From: Beroe forskalii
Lineage: Eukaryota > Ctenophora > Nuda > Beroida > Beroidae
Reading direction: 5' to 3'
DNA length: 64,000 nt
Assembly (NCBI GenBank): GCA_011033025.1
Contig: WFMF01000565.1
Coordinates: 37,722-101,721 of the forward strand
Positions 4,045-58,541 of the stretch are shown in pieces. A program made the translations under genes and the position numbers. The notes beneath the pieces are model-generated. The model was not told the origin of the DNA and made no database searches. It worked only from the letters and a program-made list of their open reading frames with translations. The number at the start of each line of letters is the position of its first letter. Within the stretch, counting starts at the first letter, position 1.

Positions 4045-4250
4045 GGCTAAAAAATGGGTGGACTTAACTCCGCCGCGGACCCGCTGCGGACCCGGTGGAC
4101 CCGCTGCGGGTCCGCCGCGGACTCCACTAAAGTCCACCATAAAATTTTTTTGGTGGACTTTGGTGGACCCGCAGCGGACTTTTCGAAACTCCGCCGCGGA
4201 GTGGTGGACAGTCCACCGAAAAAGTCCACCAAAAAAGTCCACCGTGGACT
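4045..4250. repeat. FB1 left terminal inverted repeat
   Basis: Reverse complement of roughly 8040-8290 with small indels; the same end occurs once more at 55590-55875. It is rich in CCGCGGAC and GGTCCACC, so each arm can also fold on itself. Confidence 0.85.
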
Positions 4251-4261
4251 AAATTAATTGT

Positions 4262-4513
4262 GGAGGTAAGTCCGCCGCGGAGTCAGTGGACTCCACCGGC
4301 GGAGTCCACTGGCGGAGTCGAGTCCACTGGCGGACTCCACCAGTGGAGTCCACTGGTGGACTCGAACCACCAGTGGACTCAACTCCGCCAGTGGACTCGA
4401 ATCTGCCAGTGGACTCGACTTCGCCAGTTGACTCCGCCGGTGGAGTCCACCAGTAAACTCCACTGGTGGAATCATATCCGCCAGTGGACTCCGCCAGTGG
4501 ACTCCGCCATTAG
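4262..4513. repeat. FB1 left minisatellite, (CTCCACCRGTGGA)n
   Basis: Degenerate units of 12-13 bp alternate CTCCGCCAGTGGA and CTCCACCGGTGGA forms. Each unit is itself a near palindrome. Matching units in the other arm lie at 7772-8000. Confidence 0.85.
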
Positions 4514-4585
4514 GGCTGTATGGTTTTTGGAAAGGAGTGCCATGTGTACACATAGCTTTCTCCGATTCGGTCGATATTTCAAAGG

Positions 4586-4740
4586 GACCATCCATAAAGG
4601 GCGTCGCAATGAGCGGGGAGGGGTGAGTAGACCCTCTCAGATATGATCGATATTTCAAAATCAACTTGGGGGCCATCCATAAAGGACGTCCGCAAAATTT
4701 TGGCCATTTCAGACCCCTCCCTCCCCCTTGTCCGCAAGCG
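4586..4740. repeat. GGGCCATCCATAAAGG element ends
   Basis: Two same-strand copies of GGRCCATCCATAAAGG followed by CGTCCGCAA occur near 4586 and 4670. The same word starts a related fragment near 19922. This is probably a degraded MITE family; no partner terminus could be assigned. 4741-4948 shows nothing further. Confidence 0.55.
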
Positions 4741-4948
4741 TCCGCAATCCAGAAACCCCTAATTTCAATGCTTTTTCCAGCTGGAATTGGAAAAAGGGTG
4801 TGTCCGGTGCGAACGTGAAATTAAGGATTTGACCAAAAATAAACATGTCACACCTCTTTTTAAGACAAATGGGGGATAATTAGATTACCACCAAAAAGTT
4901 GATATTAGCCCAAATCTGAGAGGGTCCTGGGGGATTCTGGCCAATACG

Positions 4949-5171
4949 TCTCCCATGTAAACGAGAGCCTTCATTTTCCATGACAATATGACGTCACTCA
5001 GAAAAATATAATCAAGCGCATCTAGCGCTTTGAAGGTTATGGTCGGGATTAGGGTCAGGATTTGTTAGGTTTAGGGTCAGGATTAAGGTAAGGGTTTTGG
5101 TAAGAGTCTCGGTAAGGTTTAGGATAGAGAAAAATTGACCTTCGGATCTGTGACGTCACTCAGCCCCGTTT
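4949..5171 (+). mobile_element. TCTCCCATATAAACG MITE with TTAGGG-like core, truncated
   Basis: It starts TCTCCCATGTAAACG and reads in the same order as the full copy at 54300-54536: CTTCATT, TGACGTCACTCAGAAAAATA, a TTAGGGTCAGGATTAGG core, then TGTGACGTCACTCAG and CCGTTTA. The right tip is cut where the next element starts at 5172. Confidence 0.75.
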
Positions 5172-5334
5172 ACCTTATCGGACATAATTATCACGGACAT
5201 TAAATTCACGCTGAGCACCTCAGCGTGAATATTAATGTCCGTTAAAATTTTGTCCGTGATACTAATGTCCGTAATATTCAGCCTTCAGGTCCGTGAAAAT
5301 TAAGTCCGGCATTTCGTCCTAAAATTTGGTAATC

Positions 5335-6150
5335 CGACGGAAGTTCGAACGACGGAAGTTCGAACAATTCGAACTTCCGTCGTTTCGAACTTCCGTCATG
5401 TTTGGCGACGGAAGTTCGAACTATAGACTTGCTTTTCCTGCCTTTACTTATAGAGATCTGTTTAAGCGCTAGTGTTAGCCATAGTACCATTGTTTCACAT
5501 ATGATATCCGGGGGTAGCCGTGGATCAGATGATGGTCCCAGTGGGACGTTACATCATGCGAGTACCTTCTCGAGTAGCTTCTGATTCCAATCATTGTGCT
5601 GATCAGGTGATGTAAATGATCCTGATTGTGTGTACATGGCAACATACGAGATGTCTACTCGCATATCGCACTGAAAGGGAAATTGCGATTGTGATATCAG
5701 CTATCGTCATTACGCAATGGGACCCCCATAATGTTTTCCTGTTCATCTCCCCCAATTCCAGTTCATCTCCCCCTGCAAAGCTAGTTGTTGGGCTCATTCG
5801 TGGACGCCAGAACCTCCCATACCACTCCTTCCGCTACACTCTCAACAAGTAGAAAGGCGACGTGTGCTAGTATCGGCGAATGGACAAACCCTACAAAGGC
5901 AAGCTCAACGTCTCCCACGAAACCAACGTCACCGACAGCTTTCTCTTGTAAAGCTTTAGCTAAAGGTAAAAGCTGATGAGCTTTCCTTGATAAAGCAGTA
6001 GCTATAAGTAAAACCTAAATGTATAAGGAGCAATGAGCAATTCGAACTTCCGTCGTTCGAACTTCTGTCATGTTTGGCGACGGAAGTCAGAACTGCTCAT
6101 TTTGTTCGAACTTCCGTCGTTTCTGACTTCCGTCGTTCGAACTTCCGTCG
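5335..6150. mobile_element. CGACGGAAGTTCGAAC TIR element
   Basis: Several copies of CGACGGAAGTTCGAAC in both orientations sit at 5335-5425 and 6033-6150, pointing inward from each side and flanking about 600 bp of unremarkable sequence. CCTAAAATTT occurs just outside both ends, which could be part of a target duplication or chance. Confidence 0.7.
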
Positions 6151-6501
6151 TACAATCCTAAAATTTATAGGGTAGAGACGCACAATTTCTGACCTCCTCT
6201 CTTGAAATGCACAAATAATAGAATTTGTAAGGAAATTATGCTTCTTTTTTTTTGTTGAAAACCCACGGTGGGGTACCCATAAGGGTTTTGAAACAATATA
6301 ATATATATTTACAGTATTCATATCAATAAAAACCACATGCACAAAGAGATGCCAATTAAGGCAAGTGTCCTCAGCACGAGTGGCCGGATTGCCATGCTGT
6401 TACGCCACACATAATACCCAAAAACAACTCTCAAAACATATAAATACACAAAATGCAGACACTTAGAGTTTTGAGAAGGCACATGTGAGGTATGTGTTCA
6501 T

Positions 6502-7449
6502 TCAGCGCGGATTAGGACGCAAACTACGCGCAGGTGTTGAAGTCCGGCCTGGTGGTGCAATCCCCGGGATGACCGATGACGAGGCAGACCTCATGGCAGA
6601 TGATGATGAGGAAGAGTTGGTTGACAGTTTGGAGGGTTCCTGGTCCTTCGTCCTGCTGCAGACAGCACCGTTCCTGATGAAGTAATACTGTCGAGGATCA
6701 CTGCTCATTTTCTCCTTGATCTGCGCTACAAGATTCTTCCTCTCTTGTCTCTCTTCACGGCTCCTGTCGGGGGCGACGTACACCTTCCTGAAACGCGTCG
6801 ACTCTCGCAACACCTTACCATTCCTCAATACTGTAGCCGCTGCCTCAATGCTGCCGAGAATCACCTTAACGGGTCGCTCTGCTCCTTCCTTCACCGTTCC
6901 GACACGGTAGCAGTCTCTGACAGAGGGATTCGAAGTCGAACAGCTCACACTCATCAAGTCTGCTACCTTGACCCCGAGGTGTTCATCAGGGCCTTCTCCG
7001 AGTCCAAACACCATCACTGTTCGCTTCTTGGCATCCTCCATTTTAGCAGACTTAACAGCAGCCTTTACTTGAGTTGACGTCAATCTCCCCTCACATCCCT
7101 GCTTTACAGCGTCACTGAAACTCCGGATTTCAGTCTCCACAGTTTTCTGCACCACCTCTACCTGCTCTGTTTTACTCTTCAGTAGTTCGTCCTGGAGGTT
7201 CAGCAACGTCTTCTGGTTTCCAATCTGTTCCTGATTCAGCTTCTCAACACAAATAGCAGCTGATCGCAACATTTCCTTGCTCTTTCCTAGGACACTCACA
7301 GCTGATAGAACAAGATTGGTAAGAGCCGTCTTGTCACATTTCATCACCGAAGCCTTGTTGACACCAGTCCAGTTGACTCCGAAAACAGCACCGAAAACGG
7401 AATCCATGTCCTTTTCCACGCTGTATAGTTTTTCCAAAGAAAAGTCCAT
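6502..7449 (-). CDS. LINE-type ORF1 protein (L1 ORF1p-like), 315 aa, intact frame
   Basis: Uninterrupted 315-residue frame; the ATG at 7447-7449 is the first in-frame start. Residues about 50-120 are Lys/Glu/Gln-rich and probably coiled coil. Residues 140-220 fit an RRM-like fold (RTVMVFGLGEG, VRDCYRVGTVKEG, RPVKVILGS). Residues 218-262 fit the C-terminal domain of the Transposase_22/L1 ORF1 family, with the typical RKVYVAPDRSREER then QERKNLVAQIKEK pattern. The tail is Ser-rich and basic. In that family the protein binds RNA and acts as a nucleic acid chaperone in the retrotransposition particle. No endonuclease or RT frame follows, and the ORF sits inside a TIR-bounded element, so it is either a stranded LINE fragment or captured cargo. 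A decayed relative lies at 32210-32740. Confidence 0.8.
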   Translation of the reverse strand: MDFSLEKLYSVEKDMDSVFGAVFGVNWTGVNKASVMKCDKTALTNLVLSAVSVLGKSKEMLRSAAICVEKLNQEQIGNQKTLLNLQDELLKSKTEQVEVVQKTVETEIRSFSDAVKQGCEGRLTSTQVKAAVKSAKMEDAKKRTVMVFGLGEGPDEHLGVKVADLMSVSCSTSNPSVRDCYRVGTVKEGAERPVKVILGSIEAAATVLRNGKVLRESTRFRKVYVAPDRSREERQERKNLVAQIKEKMSSDPRQYYFIRNGAVCSRTKDQEPSKLSTNSSSSSSAMRSASSSVIPGIAPPGRTSTPARSLRPNPR

Positions 7450-7666
7450 ATTGTAGCACCATGAAATTGTACACAGCTGTGTACAAAAGGTAAAGGTTGT
7501 AGCTGAGTGCGAACAAGTTGCAGTTTGCTGATAAGAGAGCTGCTAATTTAACACGCACAATAAAACTGATAAGTAGCAATGCTTAGTTGAAGTGGCTGGA
7601 TCGAGCGTGAATACTAATGTCCGTGAAGTTTTATGTCCGTGATAATTATGTCCGATAAGGTATATC

Positions 7667-7760
7667 GGACATAATGCGGACGTCCGCAATTCATGGAAAT
7701 TTTGAGCGATTTGACGGCTATTTCACCAGAAAATCATGGAATTTCGGGCCAAAAATGTTA
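7667..7760. repeat. Dispersed repeat, pair with 20013-20097
   Basis: GCGGACGTCCGCAATTCATG followed by GAAATTTTGAGCGATTTGAC, GGCTATTT and CAGAAAATCATG matches 20013-20097 in the same orientation at roughly 80% by eye. Confidence 0.7.
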
Positions 7761-7771
7761 TCCGCAAGAGG

Positions 7772-8000
7772 ACTCCGCTGGTGGAGTTGGACTCCACCTG
7801 TGGACTCCACTTGTGGACTCCGCTGGTGGACTCCACCTGTGGACTCCGCTGGTGGACTCCACCTGTGGACTCCGCTGGTGGAATCCACCTGTGGACTCCG
7901 CTGGTGGAATCCACCTGTGGACTCCGCTGGTGGACTCCACCTGTGGACTCCACCGGTGGACCAAAGTCCGCTGGTGGAGTCCACCTGGGGAGTCTACCGG
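7772..8000. repeat. FB1 right minisatellite
   Basis: About 17 units alternating CTCCGCTGGTGGA and CTCCACCTGTGGA. Frames on both strands stay open because the unit lacks stops; these are not genes. Confidence 0.9.
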
Positions 8001-8039
8001 TGGACAAAAACTCCGCGGTGGACTCCAATCCACGGCGGA

Positions 8040-8290
8040 CTTTTTTCACTGGTGGACTTTTTTGGTGGACTTTTTCGGTCGACTGTCCACCAGTGCGCGG
8101 CGGAGCCCGAGCGGACCCGCAGCGGACCCACCACTCCGCGGCGGAGTTTTGAAAAGTCCGCTGCGGATCCACCAAAGTCCACCAAAACATTTTTATGGTG
8201 GACTTTAGTGGAGTCCGCGGCGGACCCGCAGCGGGTCCACCGGGTCCGCAGCGGGTCCGCGGCGGAGTTAAGTCCACTCATTTTTTAGCC
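8040..8290. repeat. FB1 right terminal inverted repeat
   Basis: Complement of 4045-4250, ending AAGTCCACTCATTTTTTAGC then C. The same end is present at 55590-55875 with only a few differences. Confidence 0.85.
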
Positions 8291-11412: not shown

Positions 11413-11537
11413 TTGATTCCCTCCTCTCCTCCCTATTACCTACTGTTTATTTTCCAGTAACATGTGATGATAGAGGATCCGGTTACCCGTTTTCATGAAA
11501 AGAAAGTGGTAAAAGTGTCACAAGAGTTGTGATTTTT

Positions 11538-12115
11538 GTCCAATGGATCCATTGGATCCATCATGTCCAGTGGACATGTCCAATGGACGTCCATTGGACA
11601 TCCAATGGACATCCATTGAACATGATGTCCATCGGTAAAAATGTCCAATGGTGTTCAATGGATCCAATGGATCCATTGGATCCATTTTTGATGTTCAATG
11701 GACATGTTTAATGGATCCAATGGATGTTCAATGGATCCATCTGAGTGGATCCAATGGACACAATCACCAAACATGGTTTGGTAGATGGACATCAGTCTGG
11801 TATTTTTGTTCAGTGGATCCATTGTGTTCATTGGATCCAATGGATCCATTGTGTCCATTGAACACCATTGAACATGTCCATTGGATCCATTGGATCCGTT
11901 GAACATTGTGTCCATTGGATCCATTTTGTCCAATGGATCCATTGTGTCCAATGGATCCATTGTGTCCAATGGACAAAATGGATCCATTGGATCCAATGGA
12001 AACAGTGTGCAATGGATCCAATGGATCCGGTGGACATGTCCAATGGTGTTCAATGGACACATGGATCCATTGGATCCAATGGACACAATGGATCCACGAA
12101 CAAAATACGAGTTCG
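11538..12115. repeat. FB2 left array, TCCAATGGATCCATTGGA units
   Basis: A mosaic of GGATCCAATGGATCCATTGG and GGACATGTCCAATGG units, each palindromic around GGATCC or GGACATGTCC. All six frames are largely open, which explains the many spurious MDPLDPMDT-type frames. Confidence 0.9.
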
Positions 12116-12159
12116 ATGTCCATCTACCAAAACCATGGTGGGCAGATGTTGACTTTTGT

Positions 12160-12500
12160 AATCGGCGCCGATCAGCGCTGATCAGCGCCGATCCACCGCC
12201 GATCGGCGCTGATCGGCGCTGATCAGCGCGATCGGCGTTGATCAGCGCTGATCAGCGCCGATCGGGCCCGATCAGCGCTGATCAGCGACACCGCCCGATC
12301 AGCGCTGATCAGCGCGATCAGCGCCGATCAGAAATTTCAAAATTCTCATCGGCGGTCGTCGGCGCTGATCGGCGCCGATCAGCGCTGATGGCCTAAAATC
12401 AGCGCTGATCAGCGCCGACCAAAACACCCGCATAAGAGCCTTTGTAAACGCCATTTTTCCTCGAGTCGGGCGCCGATCAAGCGCTGATCGGTTGATCGCT
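12160..12500. repeat. FB2 GATCAGCGCTGATC array, left
   Basis: Self-complementary 10-bp steps alternate GATCAGCGCT and GATCGGCGCC. A spacer CGACCAAAACACCCGCATAA then GAGCCTTTG interrupts it near 12417; that spacer recurs in other elements. Confidence 0.9.
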
Positions 12501-12689
12501 AACTTGTTAAATTTGAACTGATATGGGACATTTGGGCGTGTTTGCCTCAAAATATAATTCCTGCTGACCGTGCAGGTGACATTTTACGGCAACTCCTCGC
12601 ACAGGGCTGTGACATTAATATCAACAATCACATCAACAACAACATAAACCAGTTTTACGATACAGTTATGCATTGACGTGACAGTAGAA

Positions 12690-13710
12690 CCGCAAGTACA
12701 ACACAGTTTCATTTCCACGACACAGTAACACCGTTACGACACAGTAACATCGTTATGGCACAGTAACACCGTAACACTAACACCTTAACAGCACAGTAAA
12801 TTAATGTCGTTACGACACAAAAGCACCGTTACGACACAGTAACACAGTTACTACACAGTAACGCAGTTACGACGAAGTCACGCAGTTACGATACAATAAC
12901 GCCGTTACGACAAAGTAACATCGTGACGACACAGTTTCATTGTAAATGTAACCGCACAGTAGCTCACTTACAACTCAGTAAGGACGTTACGACACAGCTG
13001 TAACACCATTACGACGCAGTTACGACACAGTCTGTACGCACTACGCAGTTCCAACACAGTAAAACAGTTACGAAAAAGTCACGCAGTTACGGCACAGTCA
13101 AGCAGTTACGACACAGTAACACCGTTACAACACAGTAACGCAGTAACACCATTACGACACAGTAGCACCCTTACGATTGTCTCACGTTGACAGACCCTCT
13201 CGAGAATCAGCGCTGTGGCTGGGTCATACATCGTACGACAACCTTACGACGCAGTTACGACACAGTAACACCGCTAGGACGCAGTTTCACGCAGTTAAGA
13301 CAAAGTCACATTGTTACGACATAGCAATACCGTTACGACACAGTTTCATTGTTAAGTCACAGTAAAACCTTCACAGCACAGTAAGGACGTTACGACACAC
13401 CACGGCTGTTAAACGACACATTCAGGCCGTAATTAAGTGCTAAAGAAGCGCTGTTAAGACACCGTAAGTGTAATGCCGTTACGACAAAGTAACACTGTTG
13501 TACGGCAGAGTAACGTTGCTACCCCAGAGTAACGCAGTTACGATAGTACGATACAATAACACTACATTACGACATAGTAACACCGTTACAACACATTTAT
13601 TGTAAGGACGTTATTACATTGTTACACCATGCAGTTACGACACATTTAACGTTGATGCCCCAGAGTAACGCAGTTACAATATAAATATACAATAACACTG
13701 TTACGACTAG
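12690..13710. repeat. FB2 TTACGACACAGTAACACCG array, left
   Basis: Degenerate units of 18-20 bp over about 1 kb, resuming at 13940-14155 and, after a strand flip, running as GTGTCGTAACGGTGTTACT from about 14100 to 14701 and 17090-17500. The palindrome's turning point is therefore near 14.1 kb. Confidence 0.85.
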
Positions 13711-13716
13711 CGAACC

Positions 13717-13932
13717 ACCGGTTTAACCGTATCTCAATAAATCCGGTCACGGAATTTCGGTTGGCTGAAAACGCCCAGTCAACCGATATTTCTTTTCTAG
13801 TTCTGTTAACCGACTGTTAACCGACTGTTTTAATCTGAAATGGTTGATTGCGAGATCAAAATATTCGGTTACGGTTTCGGTTAGCCAAAACACCTGGTTA
13901 ACCCTTATTCGGTTTCCGTTCGGTTAACCGGT
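13717..13932. mobile_element. ACCGGTTTAACCG MITE, 216 bp
   Basis: Ends ACCGGTTTAACCG and CGGTTAACCGGT are inverted, with subterminal TTCGGTTRGCYRAAAACRCC in both orientations. It interrupts the TTACGACACAG array. Confidence 0.75.
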
Positions 13933-14157
13933 CCTATCCTAGTCACGCTGTCATGACAGTAACACCGATACGACACAGTAACACCGTAATAACAGCCTTA
14001 CGTCGTTGTATGATATCCTACCCTCGTGCGCTCGCCGCAACGTTTCACAGCTGGACCTCAGAATTGCTGATAGAGTGATAGGGTCGGACATCGCCCGTCG
14101 ACTGTGAGTGTGTCGTAACGGTGTAACTGTGTCGTAACTGCGTAACTGTGTCGTTAA

Positions 14158-14339
14158 GAATCGTTCAAATATTACGTTATCACCTATATGAGGAGGGGGT
14201 TTCCAACTGATTACGTTACACGCGACGATAACAGGGGTATACGTGTTTAGCAACAGGTAAACCACTGTAAACTTGATTAACAGGGGGAGAGGGGGTTAAA
14301 ATCGGCCAAAAATTGATCACGTAATATGTGAACGATCCC
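14158..14339. mobile_element. GGGATCG MITE with TAA target duplication, 182 bp
   Basis: The tips GAATCGTTCAAATATTACGT and complement of TCACGTAATATGTGAACGAT then CCC match the element at 1919-3132. TAA flanks both sides (14155-14157, 14340-14342), the 3-bp size expected for PIF/Harbinger. Confidence 0.8.
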
Positions 14340-14704
14340 TAACTTCGTAACGGTGTCGTAACACTAACTGCGTCGTAGCGGTGTTACTGTGTCGTCACTG
14401 CGTGACTGTGTCGTAAGGGTGTTACTGTGTCGTGATGGTGTTACTCATACTGCGTGTTGTAATAGTGTTACTGTGTCGTAATAGTGAAACTGTGTTGTAA
14501 CGGTATTAGTGTTACTGTGTCATAACGATGTGACTGTGTCGTAGCTGCTTTACTGTGTCGTAACGGTGTTATTGTGTTGTAACGACGTTACTGTGCTGTA
14601 AAGGTGTAACTGTGTCGTAACGGCGTTACAATGTCGTTACGGTGTTACTGTGTCGTAACGGTGTTACTGTATTGTAACGGTTCTACTGTGTCGTAACGGT
14701 GTTA

Positions 14705-17086
14705 GGGCCAAATCGCACGGGGACAAAAATCGTGGAAACTTTCATGTCTCACCAAAATTCGGATTTTACCTATCGTGCGATTTCATTTTTTTAAGGCCAC
14801 TTTTCGTGAGATCTGAAAACGTGGTGAGAAAAGTGGTGAAAAGTATCACCGGCCTCAGGAGAGGTGACAGTTTTCACCACAATCGGTGAAATCTTTGTGG
14901 TGAAATCAAAACTCCGTCCGTTTTCAATATCGGTGAGATTTGTCACCACTGATCGCGTGCAGTGACGAAATGATCACGCGCATGGTCACGTGATAGTGGT
15001 GGAAAGTTTCACGATGGTACAAAAAACCAAAACGCACGGTAGCGGTGAGATGTAGCGTTACAACGCACGCAGTCATTGACCAATCAGCGCGCTGCATTCC
15101 AAGAGTGCGGGAAACATAGTAATTAGTGGGAAATACAAATAGCACCAATCTTTTTAAATGTATTGTTCATATCTTGCTGTTCCTTCTCATTTCTGTAGTG
15201 TTGCCACTCTGTATTTTGTTTCTTCTCCTGTATTTTCTACCCTTTACAATTATGGCATTCCATTGAAGCATTGAAGGTTGTGTTAATTCCGACTGATTGA
15301 TGTAGGAACTTTACTGTAACCAGAAACAAACATCCAGCAAAAATATGTGGCCAAGAATAGACAAAAGTCGAATCAAATAGCAGAGAAAAACAGTGAACTG
15401 CAGTGAAAGCAGTGATAGCAGCAGCCCAAACTCTGTAAAAGCAATCATTTCGAGAAAGTTAAAATCATAATATGCAAGAAAGATATTTAAAAAGATACCA
15501 AACCAAAAACGAGAGAATGAAATACAACATCTTGAAATAAAGTGTGGAATTTGCATTTGATTTGTGTTGATCAGTTGCATTGCCATGTTGCCATGGTAAC
15601 AAATTCTTCGGAAATAGCAATAACTGAGAGTGAGTGAGAGCAATACGTCATTATCATTAGTAACAATGGTGTATTACTTTTTCTCACACACGGAGGAGCG
15701 GACGATAAATGTCGCCTAATTACCGGTTTGCAGTTTGGTACATTGTGCAATTACTGTCCCGTGAGAAATGTAAAATAGGCACTTTAAGTCATTGACATAC
15801 CATATTCAACCATAGTAATTACGTCATTCTCATTTGTCTCATTAACAGAGTTTTGCAAAAACAGAGTTTCACCAAATGTAAATTGCTCATTTTTAGCCAT
15901 TTCCTTTCATCATTTCGTATCTCTTTCCAAGTTCTGTTGTAACTGAGGCGTTTTACAAAGTAACATGCTACCAAGATTAATTCATTTTCTCATTTGTTTG
16001 TTTTCCATAATTATCGTTTTTACTTCCAAAATTGCTAGTGTTTCATCTCAACACATTTTCAGCCAATAATCTTTCGATTGCAAGACCTTTGAGATTGATC
16101 CATGCTTTGATTCAATTCGTTAAAAATTTTCGTCCTCTACATAGGCTTTGCCAGCCCCTTCGAGCCCTGTGTGCTACACGATTTATACTGTTTTGCAGTT
16201 GCAGTACACTTTGCTTTTTAATTCTGCGTATCGAATGATTGTATTGCTGTGTATAGCCATGATGATGATGTATGATTCATAGTCACATTTTAAGATCGGA
16301 CATTTTAAGATTGGACGGGAACTACCATGACCCTGCGTTGTTTTGCAAGCCAGCACTGACTTAGTGTTTCCATTTTGCGATGGTATTAGAAATTTGTTTC
16401 GAGCTTGGCTGTTCACTGGCATGATGTATTGCAGTTTTAAATTGACAGCTTGACTGAAAATGCTCACTGGGCACTGTTTCGTACCATACTGCTGACTGGT
16501 CATCGATCGATACATTTTTATGCTCATGCCAGGCTGCTGACTGGTCACTGACTCCTACCAGACTGCTGACTGTACACTGGGTGCGTTCAGGGTGCTTGGG
16601 GTGTACACTGATTTGAAGGGTTTATTCAGGGTGCTTCGCCTATTTCAGTAATACAGCGGCCTGCAGTCATAAACTCAGATGAGCTGTTCAATATTGGACC
16701 TCAGCGGGATTGGAACCCACAACCTCCTGAAGCTGAAGACGTTTCGGATGCTCTGCCATTGAGCTATCAAACATGCCATTTTATCCGCCGTGCGTTTTGG
16801 CGAAAAATAATAATTCCGTGATTCCGAGATCTAGGACGTGACAAATTACACGGATATTTTGTTACGCCGTGCGTTTTCGCGAAATATATCAATTTTGGTG
16901 ACAAATTACGTCGTGCGATTTGGTGCAATTTTGTTTCCGCGAAATGCATTGAAAAGCTGTCGCCGTACGTTTTGATCATTTTTATACCGGCGTGAAATAT
17001 TCCGCCGTGCGATCTCACGAAATTTGGACGTGACAACTGACCTGGGCACATTTTTTCACGATTTTTGTCTCCGTGCGATTTGGCCC
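14705..17086. mobile_element. GGGCCAAATCGCACGG element, PIF/Harbinger-like, 2.4 kb
   Basis: Inverted tips GGGCCAAATCGCACGGGGAC, then AAAAATCGTG, with exact TTA on both sides (14702-14704, 17087-17089). Subterminal CGTGCGATTT and TGGTGAGA words recur near each end. No transposase or Myb-like frame was found, so it is non-autonomous. It sits in the inner FB2 array and is younger than FB2. Confidence 0.85.
16699..16774 (-). ncRNA. tRNA-like Pol III box region (SINE head or tRNA relic)
   Basis: On the minus strand TAGCTCAATGGCAGAGCAT is a good A box and GGGTTCCAATCCC a near-canonical B box, spaced as in a tRNA. The anticodon arm does not fold well and U33 is absent, so a functional tRNA is unlikely. 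It is probably a tRNA-derived SINE fragment within the Harbinger-like element. Confidence 0.6.
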
Positions 17087-18080: not shown

Positions 18081-18129
18081 GCAAAGTCAACATCTGCCCA
18101 CCAAACATGGTTTGGTAGATGGACATCAG

Positions 18130-44800: not shown

Positions 44801-45000
44801 TTACTGGGCCAAGTTATGTTTTTTTCAGGTCAGTCGGCTGCGCCTCAACTAAAATCGATTTTTCGGCACTTTCCCCACCCTGGAAAGTCTTGGAAAGTTG
44901 CTAGATCGATTTTTTGGCAAAAACTATAGAAAACGATCAAAATCGCTTGGTGTAGAATTTGTTCCGATTTTGGGCTATTTTCGGCCAGATTTGACTGTAC

Positions 45001-46964
45001 TAAAACCCTTCAATGTACACCATGAGTTGTACCTTTTTTGTCATCCATTTTTATTTTGTCATTTTGTATGGTATTGGTCGGTCGTTCCGGTTCAGTGTTC
45101 GGTTCACAGAGTGCATTCTCCTATATATACCTACACTAGTGTCACTACTGATTCTGACTCTCAATTTCTGGTCGCGTAGTCTATACCTTTTGATCAAGTG
45201 ATTACCTTTTGATCAAGTGATTATCTTTTGATCAAGTGATTTAGATCATTTGTCCCTCAGTTTCGATTCTTGTATAAACGATTGCATTATTCATGTGATC
45301 AAGTCTATACAAGGAATCGAAACAGGGCTCCGTACAGGACATAGCTATTTGCAACGAATGTGATTATACAGCCAAGATTTAGATTGATTCCACTGTCTGG
45401 TGAGCTGTAGCTTGATGGTTGGTTCTTCGGTTTGTCTCTCACATAAAGACTAGCTTATATAACATCAAATTGGAAATGTAATAATACTGTGTGAGCATCA
45501 ATTTTCAAACGCAAGGAAACATTTTCATTAGACACAGGGTATAAGTGCAACTTTTGTCGTGGTGCTAATGTGTGTCTTCTAAGTGCCTAACCATGGTGAA
45601 CTCATTGAAGTTCCGTGCTGTACAACATGTTACTTCTACGTCCAAAATTTAGTGCCTGAGTGCCTAAAAGTGCCCTCGAGTGCCCCTTGAGTGCCCTGAC
45701 GTAGTTGGAATTTATGGAAGGCGCGAACATGTATTATTAACAAATAACGTCGTATATGTACGACGTACGTGCATGCATGAATGATGAAAACACAGTGAGT
45801 AGGGTGTGCACTAACATCCATGCAATGAAGCAATAAGAATATGTTTTTGACTGGTGCTACAGGTCCTGCTGACGCCAGCCGCGAAGCAGTTGGCATCAGG
45901 AATATCAAAGGTAACAGGCTGGACACAGGACTAACAAAAGGCCCCACTGGAGCACTGGTGTTTTCAGGCAATGGAGAATCGACGAAATTTTGCAGTGGTG
46001 GTAGGTGAGGGGTTTGTGGGATCTCTATGAGAGGGTGAGGATTTTTATGTGCCCGTGAAGCCGTAGGTATGCTGGCTGGTGTACTACATACGATACGTCG
46101 ATACAAAGAAAACCTCTGTTTCTGCTGTCTCATCATAAACTTAAAGTTAAAACATCGGGAAAAGATACGATGAATCATGAGGTTAAAGTCCTCGTCCCAT
46201 CATTGCTTACAGTTACACATTGGCATGACACGCGGTCACAAAGACAGACACCACAAATGACTACTCAAATACCCGGCCCTGACTGTCTTTAAATCAATTT
46301 AAGTATGTAGTATGTACATGCTCAATTGTCATTACAATTGGTACATTTTATAAATCAGCACTAGATCAATTCATCAAAATGTAGGTAAATAGCAGTAAAG
46401 GCAGAAAGCACTCTGTATTGGCAGTATAAGCAGAATGCACTCTGTGAACACTGAACGACCGACCATACAAAATGTACAAAATATAAATGGAGAACGAAAG
46501 AGGCACCATGACCACTCACGGTGTACATCGCCAGTTGCAATAACTCTCAAGAATGCATAAGGCATATTAACCACATTCCATTCACGGGGCGACATCACGT
46601 GACATACATTGGCTTTGATTGTGATACCTATAACGGTTTGTAAATGTACGCAGTAAATGCAATGTGGGGAATGTGCTGATCAAAGGTGTTCGTTATTGTG
46701 CCTGTGTTCTTTCGCAAAATACAGCTGGTAAACCAGCTTAAATCTGTAGGGTGAATAAACACCGTAAATAAACATATTTATGAATTGTTAGGAATATTGC
46801 TCAATCAAAAATATATATTATCAACTTCGTTCAATATCCTAACATTAATTACAAATACCAGTATTCGCCTGATATACAGTATACACTTATGCACTTGCAA
46901 TAAGTATAATGTATATATACCTCTAGATACTTGCAATATCTGTCAACTAACCGAATGCCATAAC
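45001..46964. repeat. FB5 inner arms and core
   Basis: 45006-45180 pairs with 46380-46520. 45182-45240 has three direct copies of ACCTTTTGATCAAGTGATT. The core 45246-46380 carries a minus-strand Pro-rich 180-codon frame (45636-46178) that crosses the AGGGCACT repeat block and is not accepted as a gene. Confidence 0.6.
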
Positions 46965-47835: not shown

Positions 47836-48239
47836 AACCATTTGAACCATTTGTCATTGTTGAACCATTTGAACCATTTTGAACCATGGCATAGATAACA
47901 TTCTCTAGATTATCACTCTTGAATGCAAATTGAGTGTCATTAGGAATCATTGGTCTGTGGGTAACTTTCTTATTTCATGATTTTGAAAAATTAATTGATG
48001 AAATAATTCCGAGTTATCTCGTAAAAACGCAGATTTCCGCGCACGGTTTGGTTCACTTTTGGTCGAAAGTCCTACTGCGACTTTTTCATTTCATGGTTTT
48101 GACGTACTAGTCCGGTCGAAAACAAACAAATTTTGAAGAGTTAGGGAACTAACTTGCAGCAATGACTTAGGGTGTTTTTTCGATTCAATATGGTCCCAGG
48201 AGTCACCAAACCAAAATCCCCTAAAATCCGGTCGGCACT

Positions 48240-48930
48240 TTTCGAGATATGGCCACGCCCTTTTTTAACCGTGGGATTTTTTAGTGAAAAATCTGAATTT
48301 CAAGATTTTGAGCTTTATAGGCAAGATGATACACTAAATCCACTTATTTTTGCACGAGAAAAACGATGCAACGGTTATTTTTTGGCTATAATCATTGCTG
48401 AGGCCAATAATTGGCCACGCCCATGTTTATCGTGGGAATTTTGGGCAGAATTCCAAATTTCAAAATTTTGAGCTATACACGCAAGATTATACACTAAACC
48501 CACTTATTTTTGCACGAGAAAAACGATGCAACTGTTATTTTTTGGCTATAATCATTGCTGAAGCCATTAATTGGCCACGCCCATTTTAATCGTGGGAATT
48601 TTGGGCAGAATTCCAAATTTAAAATTTTGAGCTATAGGGGCAAGATTATACACTAAACCCGCTTATTTTTGCACGAGAAAAACGATGCAACTGTTATTTT
48701 TTGGCTATAAATTTTGCTGAGGCAAATTATTGACCACGCCTCATTTATCGTGGGAATTTTTAGCAAAAATCTAAATTTCAAAATTCTGAACTATACTAAA
48801 CCCACTTATTTTTACACGAAAAAACGATGCAACTGTTTATTTGTAGCTATAACCCCCATGGAATGCACGCAAATTTTGCCCGTGAGAATTAGGTCGAAAT
48901 TAATTGCGACAATTATTTTTATTAGCTTTA
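48240..48930. repeat. FB8 left array
   Basis: CACGAGAAAAACGATGCAAC recurs at 48353, 48513 and 48672 (steps 160, 159), with a more diverged copy near 48815. Each unit carries AATTGGCCACGCCC. Confidence 0.9.
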
Positions 48931-49044
48931 TGTGTGCTGGTTAAATACTTTCGCTCCTATGACGGTGTACATTGTATAATGAAAATATAGGTAGGTATAT
49001 TTCTATCGGTGTATATAATACGTAGATCCTTACCTAACACACTG

Positions 49045-50355
49045 TGAAATGCCCATAACGCACTGTGAAATGCCCATATGTCCTACCAGTACTCTTATGA
49101 CCCTCCGTCTTTCTAGTACACTTTGTGAAAAGCTTTCACACCCTGCGCGATTTTTCAACGCAGTCTGTGTCTGCTTAAAACGTTCCTTTTATCTTTTAAA
49201 ACAGTACTATATCTTCCAACTCACTCTTATGCCTTCCTAGCACACTGCTGTGTCTTCCTAGCACACTCCTGTGTCTTCTTAGCACACTCCTGTGTCTTCT
49301 TAGCACACTCCTGTGTCTTCCTAGCACACTACTGTGTCTTCCTAACACACCTGTGTCTTCCTAACACACTCGTGTGATTTCCAACTCATTCAGGTGTATT
49401 TCAACACACTCTTGTGACTTCCTACTACACTTCTGTATCTTCCAAGCACACTCCTGTGTCTTCCTAAGACACTTCTGTAACTTTGTATCACACTCCTGCG
49501 ACTTCAAAATAAATTCTTCGTCTTCTCAATATGTTCCTGTTTCTATTGTATCTGTATCTTCCAACTCATTCATAAACAATCCTTGTGACATTCTTGTGAC
49601 TTCCAAACTTTTAAAAACACTCTTAAATGTATTTTGTATTTTTGTGACTCTCTTACACACTCTTGCATCTTCCTAACGTACGTACGTGACTTTTAATACT
49701 CATGTGATGCTTAAACGCTCTCTGTATCTTCCGAACACACTTGTGTGGCTTTCTATAACAATCCTGTGTCTTCCGATACACTGTTTTGTCTTCTCAGCAC
49801 ACCCATACTTCGTCCTTATCCATTTTTATGGCTTTCCAATAGGTACTGATTAGTACTAAGACACTCCTGTGAGTTCTAAAACCAATGCTGTGTCTTCCAA
49901 CTCACTTTTATGACTTACCAACACACATAACTCACTACTGTATTTTTCATCACACTCTAATATGACTCCCCAAATAACTTTTGTGACTTTCTAACATACT
50001 CCTGCGTCTTCTGAAACGCTCTTGTCATTTCCAAACACAAAAATAAGACATTCGTGCGACCTAACTACACATTCTGATACTTCTTTATATTGTTCTCGCA
50101 TGATTTCTTACAATGCTGCATCCTCTTACTTTCTTCCATGACTTCCTCGCACACATAATTGTGACGTCTCATGTCTTAATACACTTTTGCGTCTTCCGGT
50201 ACTCTTCTTAATACCATCGGAGCCTTTATCTTCTCTTGTACTCTTGTATTTTTCTAACACAAATCAATATCTTTCCAACATACTCGTGTGTCTATATCAC
50301 ACATTCTTGCTTATTCCAACTCACTCTCAATGTGTCTTTCCAACACACTCCTGTG
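49045..50355. repeat. Minisatellite, ACTCCTGTGTCTTCCTAACAC units
   Basis: About 50 degenerate units of 20-25 bp, most regular at 49240-49380. Almost pure T/C on one strand in long stretches. Confidence 0.9.
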
Positions 50356-50379
50356 TGTTTAAAGGAAGTTAGAAAATAA

Positions 50380-50960
50380 AGTTAAAAAAATAAGTGGGTT
50401 TAGTGTATAATCTTGCCTGCAGGGCTCAAAATTTTTAAATTTGTATTTTTGCCCAAGATTCCCACGATAAAATGGGCGTGGCCAATTATTGGCCTCGGCA
50501 AAATTTATAGCCAAAAGATAACAGTTGCATCGTTTTTCTCGTGCAAAAATAAGCGGGTTTAATGTATAATCTTGCCTGTATAGCTCAAAATTTTCAAATT
50601 TGGAGTTCTGCCCAAAATTCCCACGATAAAAATGGGCGTGGCCAATTATTGGCCTCATCAATGATTATAGCGAAAAAATAACAGTTGCATCGTTTTTCTC
50701 GTGCAAAAATAAGTGGATTTAGTGTATTATCTTGCGTGTATAGCTCAAAATTTTGAAATTTAGATTTTTGTCCAAAATTCTCACGATAATAATGGGCGTG
50801 GCCAATTATTGGCCTTGGCAATGGTTATAACCAAAAAATAACAGTTGCATCATTTTTCTCGTGCAAAAATAAGTAGACTTAGTGTATAATCTTGCCTATA
50901 AAGCTCAAAAGTCAAAATCTTGAAACTCAGATTTTTCACCAAAAATTCCCACGGTCAAAA
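50380..50960. repeat. FB8 right array, inverted
   Basis: GTTGCATCGTTTTTCTCGTG recurs at 160-bp intervals, the complement of the left arm. Confidence 0.9.
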
Positions 50961-51173
50961 AAGGGCGTGGCCATATCTCGAAAAGTGCCGACCGGATTTT
51001 AGGGGATTTTGGTTTGGTGATTCCTGGGACCATATTGAATCGAAAAAACACCCTAAGTCATCGCTGCAAGTTAGTTCCCTGACCGATCTTATTTTCGACT
51101 GGACTATACGCCGCGAGGAATAAAAACTGAAAATTGCGCGCACAGCAATTGCTGCGCGTCAGGCGGGACGCCT

Positions 51174-52454
51174 GGCTAAATAACTCAGTTAACTCGATTT
51201 TGGGGGGGGGGGGGCTCAACTCAATTTTTTTGGAAAACAAGTTTCTGAGATAATGGTTGACCCAAAAGGTACACCCCTGGGGCCAACTTTTTGGCTGGGT
51301 TTGGTACCCCCAGACCCACTGGCGCCGCCGTGGCGCCGTGCCCAAAAAGTTTTTTGGACCTCAAATCGCCATTTTAGCAGCAATAAACCCCATACTTGCA
51401 GAGAATACGTAACTTAACGTTATTTATCGAATAAAGTTGTTTTCATTCAAAAATATTGATGTTTGACCAAGTTATGGGACAAAATAGGCTTGCGCAACGC
51501 GCGTATGCCCATATATGCCCATATATGGGCATACGTTACCATAAAACTAAAAAAATTCTAAAATCGCCATTTTCTCGGTTTCAGGTTTGCAGTTTTGCTA
51601 TAATCGACTTAACATTTTTTTCAATATCTCAGCCATTTTTCAATATTTTTACATGAAATTTTCAGAATCGCTTCAAAACTAAATTTCGCACTTTTATTGA
51701 CGGATTTTTATTTTATAGACGGATTTTTGATTGAGGTCCCCAAAATTTTTTTTGGGTCCTCGGACCAGAAATCCCCGGGGATTTTTGGTCCGAGGACCAA
51801 AAAAATGTTTGGGGACCTCAATCAAAAATCCGTCTATAAAATAAGTGCAAAATTTAGTTTTGAAGCGATTCTGAAAATTTCATGTAAAAATATTGAAAAA
51901 TGGCTGAGTTATTGAAAAAAATGTTAAGTCGATTATCACAAAACCGCAAACCGAGAAAATGGCGATTTTGTGGTTTTTTAGAAGTTTTTTGGACCTCAAA
52001 TCGCCATTTTAGCAGCAATCAACCCCATACTTGCAGAGAATACGTAACTTAACGTTATTCATCGAATAAAGTTGGTTTCATTCAAAAATATTGATGTTTG
52101 ACCAAGTTATGGGACAAAATAGGCTTGCGCAACGCGCGTATGCCCATATATGGGCATACGTTTTTCGGCCATAACTCGGCCATTTTTTGAGATATCGACT
52201 TCAAATTTTTTATGGTAACTCAGGGGACCATTATCTATCGATTGCACACCTCAGATCCCGCCCAAGTCGCTTTTGAAAAAATATGTCCATTTTGGGCCCA
52301 TTTTTGGGCACGGCGCCAGTGGGTCTGGGGGTGCCAAACCCAGCCAAAAAGTTGGCCCCAGGGGTGTACCTTTTGGGTCAACCACTATCTCAGAAACTTG
52401 TTTTCCTAAAAATTTGGGTTGAACCCCCCCCCCCTTAACTGAGTTATTTAAGCC
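51174..52454. mobile_element. FB9: 1.28-kb foldback element
   Basis: Tips GGCTAAATAACTCAGTTAA and TTAACTGAGTTATTTAAGCC. A G13 run (51202-51214) is mirrored by C11 (52424-52434). GGTACACCCCTGGGGCCAAC near 51270 is mirrored near 52370. The centre 51555-51975 is a strong palindrome around CCCCGGGG. A 175-bp segment (51345-51535) recurs at 51985-52160 as a direct, not inverted, copy. Confidence 0.85.
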
Positions 52455-54536: not shown

Positions 54537-54778
54537 GATACCCTACTTTTCGACCCTTCAAAATCCCCGTTCTCATTTGGTTCCCATCCTTTCCACCACC
54601 TTTCCATTTCCAAATCCTCTCCAAATAAGCGAATGCACTTATTTTACAAGGAGTGGTAGATGTCAAAATTTCGCCCGTAAGTGATGAGCTCATCATTTTG
54701 CAAACCTACATACATACTACCTCATCAGTACCTCATCATTTCCAAACCATACATTAACATACATACCTAGTGCGCCAG

Positions 54779-55875
54779 TGAGCTCCCCAGGTGGACTCCG
54801 CCTGCGGGGTCCACCGCCGATGGAGTTGGACTCCGCCGGTGAAATCCGCAGGTGGACTCCACCTGTGGACTCTGCCGGTGGACTCCACCTGTGGACTCCG
54901 CCGGTGGACTCCACCTGTGGACTCCGCCGGTGGACTCCACCTGTGGACTCCGCCGGTGGACTCCACCTGTGGACTCCGCCGGTGGACTCCACCTGTGGAC
55001 TCCGCTGGTGGACTCCTACCTGGATGGACTCCACCTGTGAACTCTGCCGGTGGACTCCACCTGTGGACTCCGCTGGTGGACTCTACCTGTGGACTCCGCC
55101 GGTGGACTCCACCTGTGGACTCCGCCGGTGGACTCCACCTGTGGACTCCACTGGTGGACTCCACCTGTGGACTCCGCTGGTGGACTCCACCTGTGGACTC
55201 CGCTGGTGGGCTCCACCTGTGGACTCCGCTGGTGGGCTCCACCTGTGGACTCCACCTGTGGACTCCGCAGGTGGACTCCAGTACTCCGCTGGTGGACTCC
55301 ACCTGTGGACTCCGCTGGTGGACTCCACCTGTGGACTCCACCTGTGGACTCCACAGGTGGACTCCACTTGTGGACTCCACCTGTGGACTCCGCTGGTGGA
55401 CTCCACCTGTGGACTCCACCTGTGGACTCCACCTGTGGACTCCACCTGTGGACTCCGCAGGTGGACTCCACTGGTGGACTCCACCTGTGGACTCCGCTGG
55501 TGGACTCCGCTGGTGGACTCCACCTGTGGACTCCGCAGGTGGACCAAAGTCCGCTGGCGGAGTCCGCCTGCGGAGTCCACCTGTGGACAAAAACTCCGCG
55601 GTGGACTCCAATCCGCGGCGCACTTTTTTCCCCGGTGGACTTTTTTGGTGGACTTTTCTGGTGGACTTTTCTGGCGGACTGTCCACCAGTGCGCGGCGGA
55701 GCCCGAGCGGACCCGCAGCGGATCCACCACTCCGCGGCGGAGTTTTAAAAAGTCCGCTGCGGGTCCACCAAAAAATATTATGGTGGACTTTAGTGGAGTC
55801 CGCGGCGGACCCGCAGCGGGTCCACCGGGTCCGCAGCGGATCCGCCGCGGAGTTAAGTCCACCAATTTTTTAGCC
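54779..55875. mobile_element. FB1 single-arm (half) copy
   Basis: A CTCCACCTGTGGACTCCGCC minisatellite of about 800 bp is followed by the complete FB1 right end (AGTTAAGTCCACCAATTTTT then TAGCC). There is no left TIR. The 26-bp higher-order unit (CTCCACCTGTGGA plus CTCCGCCGGTGGA) is very uniform. Open frames up to 395 codons here are products of the repeat. Confidence 0.9.
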
Positions 55876-56439
55876 GAGCGCTTCAAATTAGCACTGAAAA
55901 AGGGTGATATTTTTCCAAAAACCAAAATGGATTTGGTTGTGTTGGGCGCGGCGTTTTGTTGCTGAAAAACCTGGCTATATACTGGGTGAACTGCAGTTCA
56001 TATGAAGTCGCCGCGCACTTCATATGAATTCATATGAATTCATATGAGTTCATTTGAATGCGTTTACCAGTTCAATAAATTTTTATATGAATGAACTTCA
56101 TATGAACTTCATATGAATTCATATGAACTTCATATGAACTCCACCAAGTTCATATGAACTTCATATGAATTCATATGAATTCAATAAACACGGATGAACT
56201 AGTTCACCAAAATTTAGTGAACTGAGATGCATATGAACTCATATGAACTCATATGCATTCCAGTTCGCCTTGAATTCATATGAACTAGGAAGTTCATCTC
56301 GCGGACTCCAGTTCAACGCAGTTCAACGGAGTTCAACGCAGTTCAACGGAGTTCAACGCAGTTCAACGGAGTTCAACGAATTCATCTCGAAGTTCATCTA
56401 GAAGGTCAAAATGATAATTTAACAGATATTTCGGGGATG

Positions 56440-56730
56440 GATCAAAACATGGATCAGCGACGCCAAGAGAGCCGCACCGCAGTGCCGCGGTGACGCCAGG
56501 GCAGTGCCATGGTGAAGCCACGAGGACGCCACTACTGGGCAACGATGAAGCCACAAGGGCGCCACGGTGACATCATGGCAGTCATGGCAGTGCCACTGTG
56601 AAGCCATGGCGTCTTCATGGCTTCGTCGTGTCGTCCTCGTGGCTTACACCATGGCACTGCCCTGGCGTCGATGTGGCGCACTGGCGCTACCATGGGGCCC
56701 TCTTGGCGTTGCTGCTCTGATCTATGCCCG
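56440..56730. repeat. Secondary inverted repeat, GCCATGGCACTGCC words
   Basis: ATGGATCAGCGACGCCAAGA pairs with TCTTGGCGTTGCTGCTCTGA then TCTAT. The inside is a loose palindrome of CCATGGCACTGCC and GTGCCATGGTGAAGCCA centred near 56590. 56731-56990 shows nothing. Confidence 0.75.
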
Positions 56731-56999
56731 ATAAGTCTCTCATTCCGGTTGACTGCTGAGCGACGTCACCTATTGAAAGGCTTTTTTCAATTTTAAAGAG
56801 GCTGTTAAACTTCACCAAATTAGCTGCATATTGATCCATTTCACTAAAAGGGCTTCCAAAATCAAATAGTTAAATCAGACTCAAGTCTTGAGCTCTTCCA
56901 TAAACGATTTTTCGTACTCTTGTTAAGTGTACAGTCACGTGACAACTAAAAAATTTCACTTACGTCATGAATTAACTCTAGTCACTCTACGACCACTCA

Positions 57000-57880
57000 G
57001 TGACTCGACGACTCAAATCGACTCGATGCCTCAACTCGACGACTTGATTTGACGACTCTCTGACTTGTCTCGACGACTCGTCTCAACGACTCGACTCGAC
57101 GACTACTCTCAACGACTCGACTCGACGACTCAACTCGACTCGACGACTCGACTCGACTCGACGACTTGACTCGGCGACTCGACGACTCGACGACTCGACG
57201 ACTCGACGACTTGACTCGACGACTCGACGACTCGACTCGACGACTCGACTCGACGACTCGACTCGACTCGACGACTCGACTCAGTCGTCGAGTCGAGTCG
57301 TCGAGTCGAGTCGTCGAGTCGTCGAGTCGAGTCGTCGAGTCGTCGAGTCGAGTCGAGTCAAGTCGAGTCGTCGAGTCGTCGAGTCGAGTTGTCGAGTCGA
57401 GTCGTCGAGTCGAGTCGAGTCGTCGAGTCGTCGAGTCGAGTCGTCGAGTCGTCTAGTTGAGTCATCGAGTCATTGAGTCGAGTCGTCGATTCGAGTCGTC
57501 GAGTCGTCGAGGTGTCGAGTCGAGTCGTCGAGTTGAGTCGTCGAGTCGAGTCGAGTCGAGTCGAGTCGTCGAGTCGTCGAGGTGTTGAGTCGAGTCGAGT
57601 CGAGTCGAGTCGTCGAGTCGAGTCGAGTCGTCGAGTCGTCGAGTCGTCGAGTCGAGTCGTCGAGTCGAGTCGAGTCGTCGAGTCGAGTCGTCTAGTCGAG
57701 TCGTCGAGTCATTGAGTCGAGTCGTCGATTCGAGTCGTCGAGTCGTCGAGGTGTCGAGTCGAGTCGAGTCGTTGAGTTGAGTCGTCGAGTCGAGTCGAGT
57801 CGTCGCTTCGAGTCGTCGAGTCGCGTCGTCGAGTCGAGTCGTCGAGTCGAGTCAAGTCATGAAGTCCAGTCATTGAGTCA
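57000..57880. repeat. (CGACTCGA)n/(TCGAGTCG)n array
   Basis: GACGACTCGACTCGACGACT runs to about 57281, then CAGTCGTCGAGTCGAGTCG onwards. TCGA steps make each strand locally self-pairing as well. Confidence 0.95.
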
Positions 57881-58541
57881 AGTCATTGACTACCTCCGCT
57901 GTCAGATAACATTTCTATCTACATTATTATTTTCTCATTCCTAATGAGCTAATGGGAATTTGGAAGGACGTGTTGCGTAAAATAAGTGCTCGCAGTGGAG
58001 GGTAGGGTAACACTAACAGTTACATACAGTCGTTTAGGTCTATTCTGTTGCAAAGCTAAGTTTTTCCAAAATAACATATGTTATTCTTATTGAGTGACAT
58101 GAACTCAGGTGAACTCAAATGAACTCAGGTGAACTCCAGTTCAACGCAGTTCAACGCAGTTCAACGCAGTTCAACGCAGTTCAACGCAGTTCAACGTAGT
58201 TCAACGCAGTTCAATGAATTCAGGTGAACTCCAGTTCAACGCAGTTCATATGAATGAACTAGTTCATTCATATGAATTCATATGCATCTCAGTTCACTAA
58301 ATTTTGGTGAACTGGTTCATCCGTGTTTAGTGAATTCATATGAATTCATGTGAAGTTCATATGAACTGGGTGGAGTTCATATGAAGTTCATATGAATTCA
58401 TATGAAGTTCATATGAAGTTCATTCATATAAAAATTTATTGAACTGGTAAACGCATTCAAATGAACTCATATGAATTCATATGAATTCATATGAAGTGCG
58501 CGGCGACTTCATATGAACTGCAGTTCACCCAGTATATAGCC

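Follow-up and report, generated by a model that had tools for sequence, protein, structure and literature searches.

Foldback (FB) elements of Drosophila have arms of short tandem repeats, as have the elements considered here, and belong to a different transposase lineage. The role of such long repetitive foldback arms is an old open question. The elements considered here lie in a stretch of 64,000 nucleotides of the ctenophore Beroe forskalii (assembly GCA_011033025.1, contig WFMF01000565.1, positions 37,722 to 101,721), which we call the window and whose own numbering is used throughout. Elements of the Merlin superfamily have been described with GG tips, target site duplications (TSDs) of 8 or 9 bp and terminal inverted repeats (TIRs) of 24–462 bp; some families contain internal tandem repeats, and the hosts include three ctenophores (PMC8101967). 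For Galileo, an element of the P superfamily in Drosophila, binding of the THAP domain of the transposase to several sites in the arm repeats has been tested and confirmed (PMC3688188), a precedent for arms as binding sites. The best reading of the window is that its elements with palindromic arms are Merlin transposons or stand close to this known superfamily. For the most part, the landscape looks like a single superfamily of known kind whose foldback form we have not found described.

Comparison of the window with its own reverse complement reveals paired inverted arms in ten elements, with 162–199 identities over the first 200 bp in nine of them. The architecture is that of foldbacks, namely long inverted arms built of short tandem repeats. 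FB1 (4045..8290; 175 identities over the first 200 bp) has the tip GGCTAAAAAATGGG, a 13-bp unit TGGACTCCACC(TG) and an 8-bp TSD. FB2 (11508..18701; 199 identities, or 197 when paired with a second right end) has the tip GGTAAAAGTGTCACAAG and a unit around TCCA(A/T)TGGATCCA with period 9. Element E (12141..18098, script name X; 178 identities) has the tip GGCAGATGTTGACTTT and the unit GATCAGCGCT with period 10. Element G (33453..41318, script name D; 173 identities) has the tip GGCATAATCCACGATTTTTG, units GAATTCGCCGC and GAATTCACCT with period 10, and the 8-bp TSD CTACGTGA. A further element (33692..37896, script name L; 162 identities) has the tip GG(G)CAAA(A)TGGTACCACAGG, the unit TAGCCTCCAC with period 10 and the 8-bp TSD CGAACAAG; for this element and G the window copy alone was examined for a TSD. 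FB10 (55973..58541, script name G; 198 identities) has the tip GGCTATATACTGGG and a unit around ATGAACTTCAT with period 10–11. Nesting is partial: the element at 33692..37896 lies inside G, and E lies between the FB2 arms. Without complementing, the right arms of FB1, FB2, E, G and FB10 align with the left arms at 130–158 of 200 positions, as expected if the units are self-complementary, versus 118 of 200 for the element at 33692..37896 and 108–112 of 200 for the other three of these nine elements. The initial annotation had described at least eight elements of one plan. Inverted arms are indeed present, and in ten elements; the single plan does not hold, since palindrome statistics and tips split the set, and an assignment of all elements to one class was rejected. 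Five of its names (FB3, FB5, FB6, FB8 and FB9) came without coordinates and are not assignable to the confirmed elements.

Tip patterns were searched with at most one mismatch in the whole assembly (216 Mb, 1134 contigs), covering FB1 and FB10 jointly, FB2, E, G and the element at 33692..37896. All tested tips are abundant elsewhere: 378 places for the joint pattern of FB1 and FB10, 338 for FB2, 293 for the element at 33692..37896, 182 for G and 177 for E, with reversed-pattern controls of 0 in each case apart from 5 for E. Judged by eye on the first 100 listed places per pattern, many of the tips pair at set distances, about 870 bp for FB2, about 2.2–2.4 kb for G, and about 4.1 kb or 0.1–0.3 kb for E. 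The exact sequence TCCACCGGTGGA, doubled with a 6-bp spacer, has 0 genome places. FB2 seems to have been amplified recently, since 18 copies between 600 and 1000 bp long are on average 0.977 identical in pairwise comparison; the length of copies ranges from 365 to 1351 bp, with one longer copy of 1780 bp.

Target duplications were read for FB2 at 30 loci, which gave 20 distinct elements in which the left and the right tip were both readable: 16 have an exact 8-bp TSD, one an exact 9-bp TSD, two an 8-bp TSD with one mismatch, and one has none. A 1.8-kb copy of FB2 is flanked by the 8-bp TSD AAAATAAT. For FB1, all six tip pairs fetched whole show an exact 8-bp TSD, as does the copy in the window (GACAGACC), and one genome copy of FB10 (L091, 6.3 kb) has the exact 8-bp TSD CTAATTTA. 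E has a GG tip; a possible 8-bp TSD copy, GTTTGGTG, adjoins one of its right ends, that of the 19071 duplicate (at 19072), and on the left side there is perhaps a shortened copy of the same sequence at 12133–12140. A scan of the window for TSDs resulted in 15 pairs, of which three, situated at the ends of inverted arms, were accepted, the other 12 being inside arrays; the reversed sequence also gives 15 pairs, so the window scan proves nothing on its own.

GG tips together with 8-bp duplications pointed to Merlin. The profile PF12762 (DDE_Tnp_IS1595) identifies 35 places in the genome. All eight transposase frames tested score above the Pfam cut-off for this family, and in 43 sequences the catalytic residues D179 and E279 are invariant and D242 is nearly invariant. 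In 9 of 30 fetched loci the transposase stretch lies between GG...CC tips that agree at 16–18 of 18 bp, and an exact 8-bp TSD flanks them; the same test gives 0/30 for duplications of 7, 9 or 10 bp and 0/30 on reversed sequence. The remaining 21 loci show no tip pair, perhaps because long arms extend beyond the 1.5 kb fetched per side, or because of decay of the copies. The nine delimited elements carry inverted arms of short tandem units just inside their tips, as in the window. The transposase-bearing elements combine the features by which Merlin is recognized, a PF12762 transposase with its acidic residues as well as GG tips and an 8- or 9-bp TSD.

The predicted structure of one transposase, L068 (mean pLDDT 85.4, residues 1–35 low), consists of short strands around cysteine pairs, a helical part and a DDE core. 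Its best matches among solved structures are retroviral integrases and the ISCth4 transposase (E-values of 3e-5 and up, TM by query about 0.3), to which it bears little resemblance overall. Among the 120 listed of its 161 homologues, the highest-ranking proteins with a species name come from Mnemiopsis leidyi; there are two of them, with identities of 80 and 56 percent and a query coverage of 38 and 48 percent, respectively, and three Elysia proteins with 41–56 percent identity come next. The N-terminus of the transposases contains an invariant CxxC and, about 22 residues on, a nearly invariant second CxxC; in the model these pairs appear zinc-ribbon-like, with short strands. Pfam lists no IS1595 zinc-ribbon family for the tested frames, and Merlin elements have so far been described as lacking a zinc-ribbon domain (PMC8101967). 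A separate observation concerns L078: nine of its relatives span exactly residues 155–317 with two TAA stops, and many more matches start at residue 155, which suggests amplification of a deletion derivative that retains a portion of the gene.

Sequence comparison shows that a family with a Merlin gene is represented in the window by one miniature. The miniature (56433..56729, 297 bp, GGGCATAGATCAGAAC family) is nested in FB10, and the similarity of its ends and arms to those of L084, an element with a transposase, amounts to 92 bits, versus 24 bits for the best of 50 shuffles. It is degraded, with a decayed left tip and flanks that agree in 6 of 8 bases, and the L084 transposase frame is itself interrupted. 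Both a 5'-GG tip and an 8- or 9-bp TSD are found for FB1, FB2, G, FB10 and the element at 33692..37896. Membership of FB1, FB2, E, G and FB10 in Merlin is strongly indicated, not proven. With a probability of roughly 0.7, we consider these families and the element at 33692..37896 to be non-autonomous DNA transposons that belong to Merlin or to a close sister group, whose TIRs have expanded into foldback arms, arrays of units of about 9–13 bp, and which are moved in trans. A Merlin DDE transposase would bind the GG tips in trans, excise the element and insert it at a staggered 8-bp target cut. The initial annotation had suggested a new class of elements. This suggestion is not borne out, because GG tips, 8-bp TSDs and a Merlin transposase occur together in elements of the same plan.

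The self-complementarity of the units was measured as the share of arm bases in perfect palindromes of at least 10 bp, or at least 11 bp with one unpaired centre, relative to 60 dinucleotide shuffles per arm. In FB1, FB2, E, G and FB10 the share is 0.30–0.65, versus 0.02–0.08 in shuffled arms (z = 11.8, 12.8 and 21.5 for three FB1 arms, 12.0 for FB2, 10.5 and 12.2 for E, 6.5 and 9.2 for G, 11.5 for FB10). An E-like array at 34137–34500 reaches z = 7.6. Twelve non-array controls of 600 bp range from -1.1 to 3.8 (30 shuffles each), hence a z below about 4 means little. The arms of the element at 33692..37896 are palindromic weakly at best (z = 2.5 and 1.0), and no clear excess is found for a 19-bp array at 12700–13140 (z = 0.7) or for the arms at 24109, 42216, 48108 and 20637 (z = -0.5 to 2.5); for the GACTCG core of FB10, z is -5.8. 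The description of the unit as itself palindromic in FB1, FB2, E, G and FB10 is thereby confirmed, and the occurrence of unrelated self-complementary unit types side by side is supported. Among ten transposase-linked families, four have an excess of perfect palindromes (CCGGCTAGCCGG, TAGTGGAATTCCACTA, CTTCCCGGACC and ACGGTTCCCTG) and six have no clear excess (GGAACTTAGTC, GGCGGACCTAA, GCACACCTGGG, AGTCTCGGAGA, CGGTTAACGGT and CGCCACGGTGA). Self-complementarity is therefore common, not defining.

Within the units, paired positions vary independently. For the E unit GATC-(A/G)-GCGC-(C/T)-GATC, the combinations A..T, A..C, G..T and G..C occur 17, 9, 8 and 4 times (38 units, Fisher p = 1.0), and for the other phase of the GATC-GCGC unit 18, 9, 10 and 3 times (40 units, p = 0.72), the E-like array at 34137–34500 being included in both counts. 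Among the 39 spacers of the long FB1 array, 25 have an A and 14 a G following TCC, while the position paired with this base holds T in all 39. Independent variation of half-sites, together with the six families without palindrome excess, speaks for half-sites that act singly at a fixed helical phase, and arms made of helically phased binding sites are the favoured reading.

This reading draws on the spacing of the units. The ten transposase-linked families were grouped by hand on unit and, where known, tip. For three of them (AGTCTCGGAGA, CTTCCCGGACC and ACGGTTCCCTG), which consist of arrays next to a transposase, no ends of the element were found, and an 11-bp array ACTGGCGTGAT in L062 and L080 was excluded from the count as possibly part of an adjacent element. 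Seven of the ten families have a period of 11 bp; the others have 22 bp (with an 11-bp sub-period), 12 bp and 21 bp. Restricted to the seven families with delimited elements, 11 bp is found in five. Background arrays of the window (periodic, at least 60 bp) have periods of 6–172 bp, with 11 bp in 0/15 and 10–12 bp in 1/15 (Fisher p = 2.5e-4 for 7/10 and 8e-4 for 5/7). These p-values serve as a guide only, since the test was set up post hoc, on a grouping by hand, and the families share descent. The unit sequences themselves are no more alike than shuffled ones in any rotation or on any strand: 217 of 300 shuffles reach the observed mean, for eight units treated as 11-mers, including ACGGTTCCCTG, to which the automatic rule assigns a period of 22. 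Within the window, the FB1 unit GTGGA-C-TCCAC stands against the FB10 unit ATGAA-C-TTCAT, and the tips of the two families are identical at 16 of 20 positions.

As part of the favoured reading, though held with less certainty than transposition in trans, the arrays would serve as repeated sites, about one helical turn apart, for the transposase or a partner protein. They would gain and lose units, and the unit sequence would turn over as a whole while the spacing is kept; palindromic units would allow a dimer, or a monomer in either orientation, to bind. Going further, tentatively and with considerable doubt, we suggest that the conserved trait is a geometry (one turn of 11–12 bp or two turns of 21–22 bp), the units being private codes, each for the transposase of its own family, which would assemble on the phased array into a filament that synapses the two arms. 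If true, private codes would explain how about ten Merlin families coexist without cross-mobilising, and also the joint change of unit and tip between FB1 and FB10. As a bolder, speculative extension, architectural zinc-finger proteins of the host may have come to use arrays of this type as anchors; transposon-rich loop promoters have been reported in a study of ctenophore chromatin loops (PMC12221973). Apart from the limits of the test itself, two results weigh against a spacing rule. Periods in the window families are 10 bp for E, G, 33692..37896 and FB10, 9 bp for FB2 and 13 bp for FB1, all close to 11 bp but none equal to it, which weakens a carry-over of the rule to them, and for some transposase-linked arms the automatic rule gives longer periods, from 22 to 72 bp (32, 48, 59, 64 and 72).

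It is also quite possible, if short of probable, that the arms are neutral by-products of slippage, unequal exchange and hairpin-primed gap repair; this explanation competes with the arm part of our reading alone. The variable length of FB2 copies, the missing co-variation of half-sites and the rearranged, inverted arms at 18702–19344 fit such an origin, and the TIR repeats of the Drosophila element Tetris have expanded into satellite DNA (PMC4079207). Neutral turnover accounts less readily for spacing, as the periods of other arrays in the window cover 6–172 bp and yet a period of 11 bp is maintained in seven of the ten transposase-linked families, whose units are unrelated.

We note that several results count against a placement of the window families in Merlin. 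No transposase was found in the window with 30 query frames (best E-value 0.027, from a non-transposase frame) or with the nine A1 transposase frames (best E-value 0.36, no match), and none was found in three long copies (L091–L093). No place of a Merlin transposase lies between paired tips of FB1/FB10, FB2, E, G or the element at 33692..37896, as compared by eye for the first 100 listed places per tip pattern; one transposase fragment (C2:698987) is located inward of a lone FB10 tip, at a distance of 0.8 kb. No TSD is visible by eye at FB2 and FB10 in the window, nor at a candidate element at 51174..52454. In the nine delimited transposase elements we saw no uninterrupted frame of full length, and the seven uninterrupted frames of 306–330 aa (L061, L063, L064, L068, L074, L075 and L078) all belong to the 21 loci without delimited tips. 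The window families could belong to another superfamily with 8-bp TSDs (hAT, P/Galileo or a Mutator-like foldback), the Merlin elements of the genome merely looking alike. In favour of this alternative, no transposase is tied directly to the tips of FB1, FB2, E, G or FB10 by a genome search that was aimed at Merlin and did not look for hAT, P, Mutator or THAP, and foldback arms are known to have arisen in the P and Mutator groups, in Galileo and the nematode element Tm1, respectively (PMC3688188; PMC3169594). We nevertheless regard it as unlikely: all window families with palindromic arms are GG...CC-tipped, like Merlin families (PMC8101967), the same genome harbors transposase-bearing Merlin elements with the plan of tip followed by array and an exact 8-bp TSD, and the miniature at 56433..56729 is homologous to one of them.

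The initial annotation had further proposed that a single strand can fold at the level of the unit. As a function of the arms, unit hairpins on single strands, acting in replication, in excision or as a source of double-stranded RNA, would agree with the strong excess of perfect palindromes in five array types of the window and in four of the ten transposase-linked families. The independent half-sites of the GATC-GCGC unit, the FB1 spacers in which one base varies opposite a fixed T, and the six families without palindrome excess all argue in the other direction. With half-sites varying independently, hairpins are not visibly selected; the proposed folding at unit level is not supported, and we consider a hairpin function very unlikely. 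Finally, an assembly artefact or collapsed satellite is hardly credible: repeats of this kind are prone to mis-assembly, and the assembly consists of 1134 contigs, yet many independent copies with differing flanks and exact 8-bp duplications are hard to obtain in this way.

Some of the window copies show further structure. The core of FB1 contains an open reading frame (ORF) of 346 aa on the minus strand (6502–7542), presumably similar to the ORF1 of long interspersed nuclear elements (LINEs). The frame has no Pfam family, and its seven homologues are all unnamed. In the copies read, coding cores were rejected as a source of mobility, as the FB1 ORF is without a Pfam family and the frames of L091 are translations of its array; the core of the latter copy is an array of CGACT/CGAGT of about 4 kb. 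In the window copy of FB10 the CGACT/CGAGT array changes strand near 57285. A second copy of FB1 (54775..55876) consists of a long array and the right tip, with no left tip seen in the comparisons. TTAGGG-like repeats (54382–54478) occur within a segment at 54296–54527 that is similar to 4945–5172 in FB1. Downstream of FB2, a rearranged duplicate of its right end together with that of E occupies 18702..19344, such that 18085–19344 contains two FB2/E right ends in tandem. The flanking sequence that follows 18701, CAACTTGA, is the reverse complement of the one that follows 19336, TCAAGTTG; it seems that part of FB2, along with its target duplication and some 280 bp of further DNA, was inverted, or copied in inverted orientation.

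The window contains further elements. The candidate at 51174..52454 (166 identities over the first 200 bp of the arms) is GG-tipped, with the tip GGCTAAATAACTCAG. Two elements of a different kind, 42216..45002 (tip TAGTACAGTCAAAT, 172-bp units, 181 identities) and 48108..51106 (tip TAGTCC(A/G)GTCGAAAA, 160-bp units, 179 identities), have inverted arms and related TA-flanked tips, TA-GT(A/C)C(A/G)GTC, or in fuller form TAGT(A/C)C(A/G)GTC(A/G)AA. They are perhaps Tc1/mariner-like foldbacks. A large inverted element (24109..30460) has arms that pair over about 810 bp at 91 percent, and sequence of its left part recurs at distances of 1034 and 1551 bp, corresponding to units of about 517 bp. LINE-like fragments are found on the minus strand at 58946–62596, with an endonuclease domain above the Pfam cut-off at 61394–62596 and a weak reverse transcriptase match at 60036–60467; they are adjoined by 39-bp tandem arrays, which form an inverted pair that passes the end of the window. 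A search for known structured RNAs gave no Rfam match at gathering thresholds.

A genome in which about ten related transposase-linked families combine unrelated units with a near-constant spacing allows a direct test of whether foldback arms are binding arrays or junk. The results add Merlin to the superfamilies with a foldback plan, probably in an animal lineage that branched off early. Among the open-licence papers listed in our searches we found no account of Merlin elements with foldback arms or of a spacing common to families. The terms 'foldback', 'palindrom' and 'MITE' occur nowhere in the main text of PMC8101967, and the available part of this source does not describe for Merlin foldback arms of often palindromic units of about 11 bp in many families of one genome. 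Similar arms are known from other superfamilies. Galileo shares long repetitive TIRs, many incomplete copies and an association with chromosome rearrangements (PMC3688188), but has a P-type transposase with a THAP domain and a 7-bp TSD (PMC4168063), in contrast to 8 bp in FB1 and FB2. Tm1, a Mutator/Foldback element of root-knot nematodes, has composite TIRs in which a motif of about 14 bp is repeated in tandem, and occurs in MITE-like and transposase-bearing copies; it differs in its placement with Mutator and in a TSD of mostly 9 bp (PMC3169594). Tetris/DAIBAM of Drosophila virilis are likewise foldback elements with tandem repeats in their TIRs and without a complete partner found, whereas their units measure 220 bp (PMC4079207). 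With the Merlin superfamily, related to IS1016 and IS1595, the GG-tipped elements of the window have in common these tips and the TSD of 8 bp (rarely 9 bp), and the PF12762 transposase is present in their partner elements.

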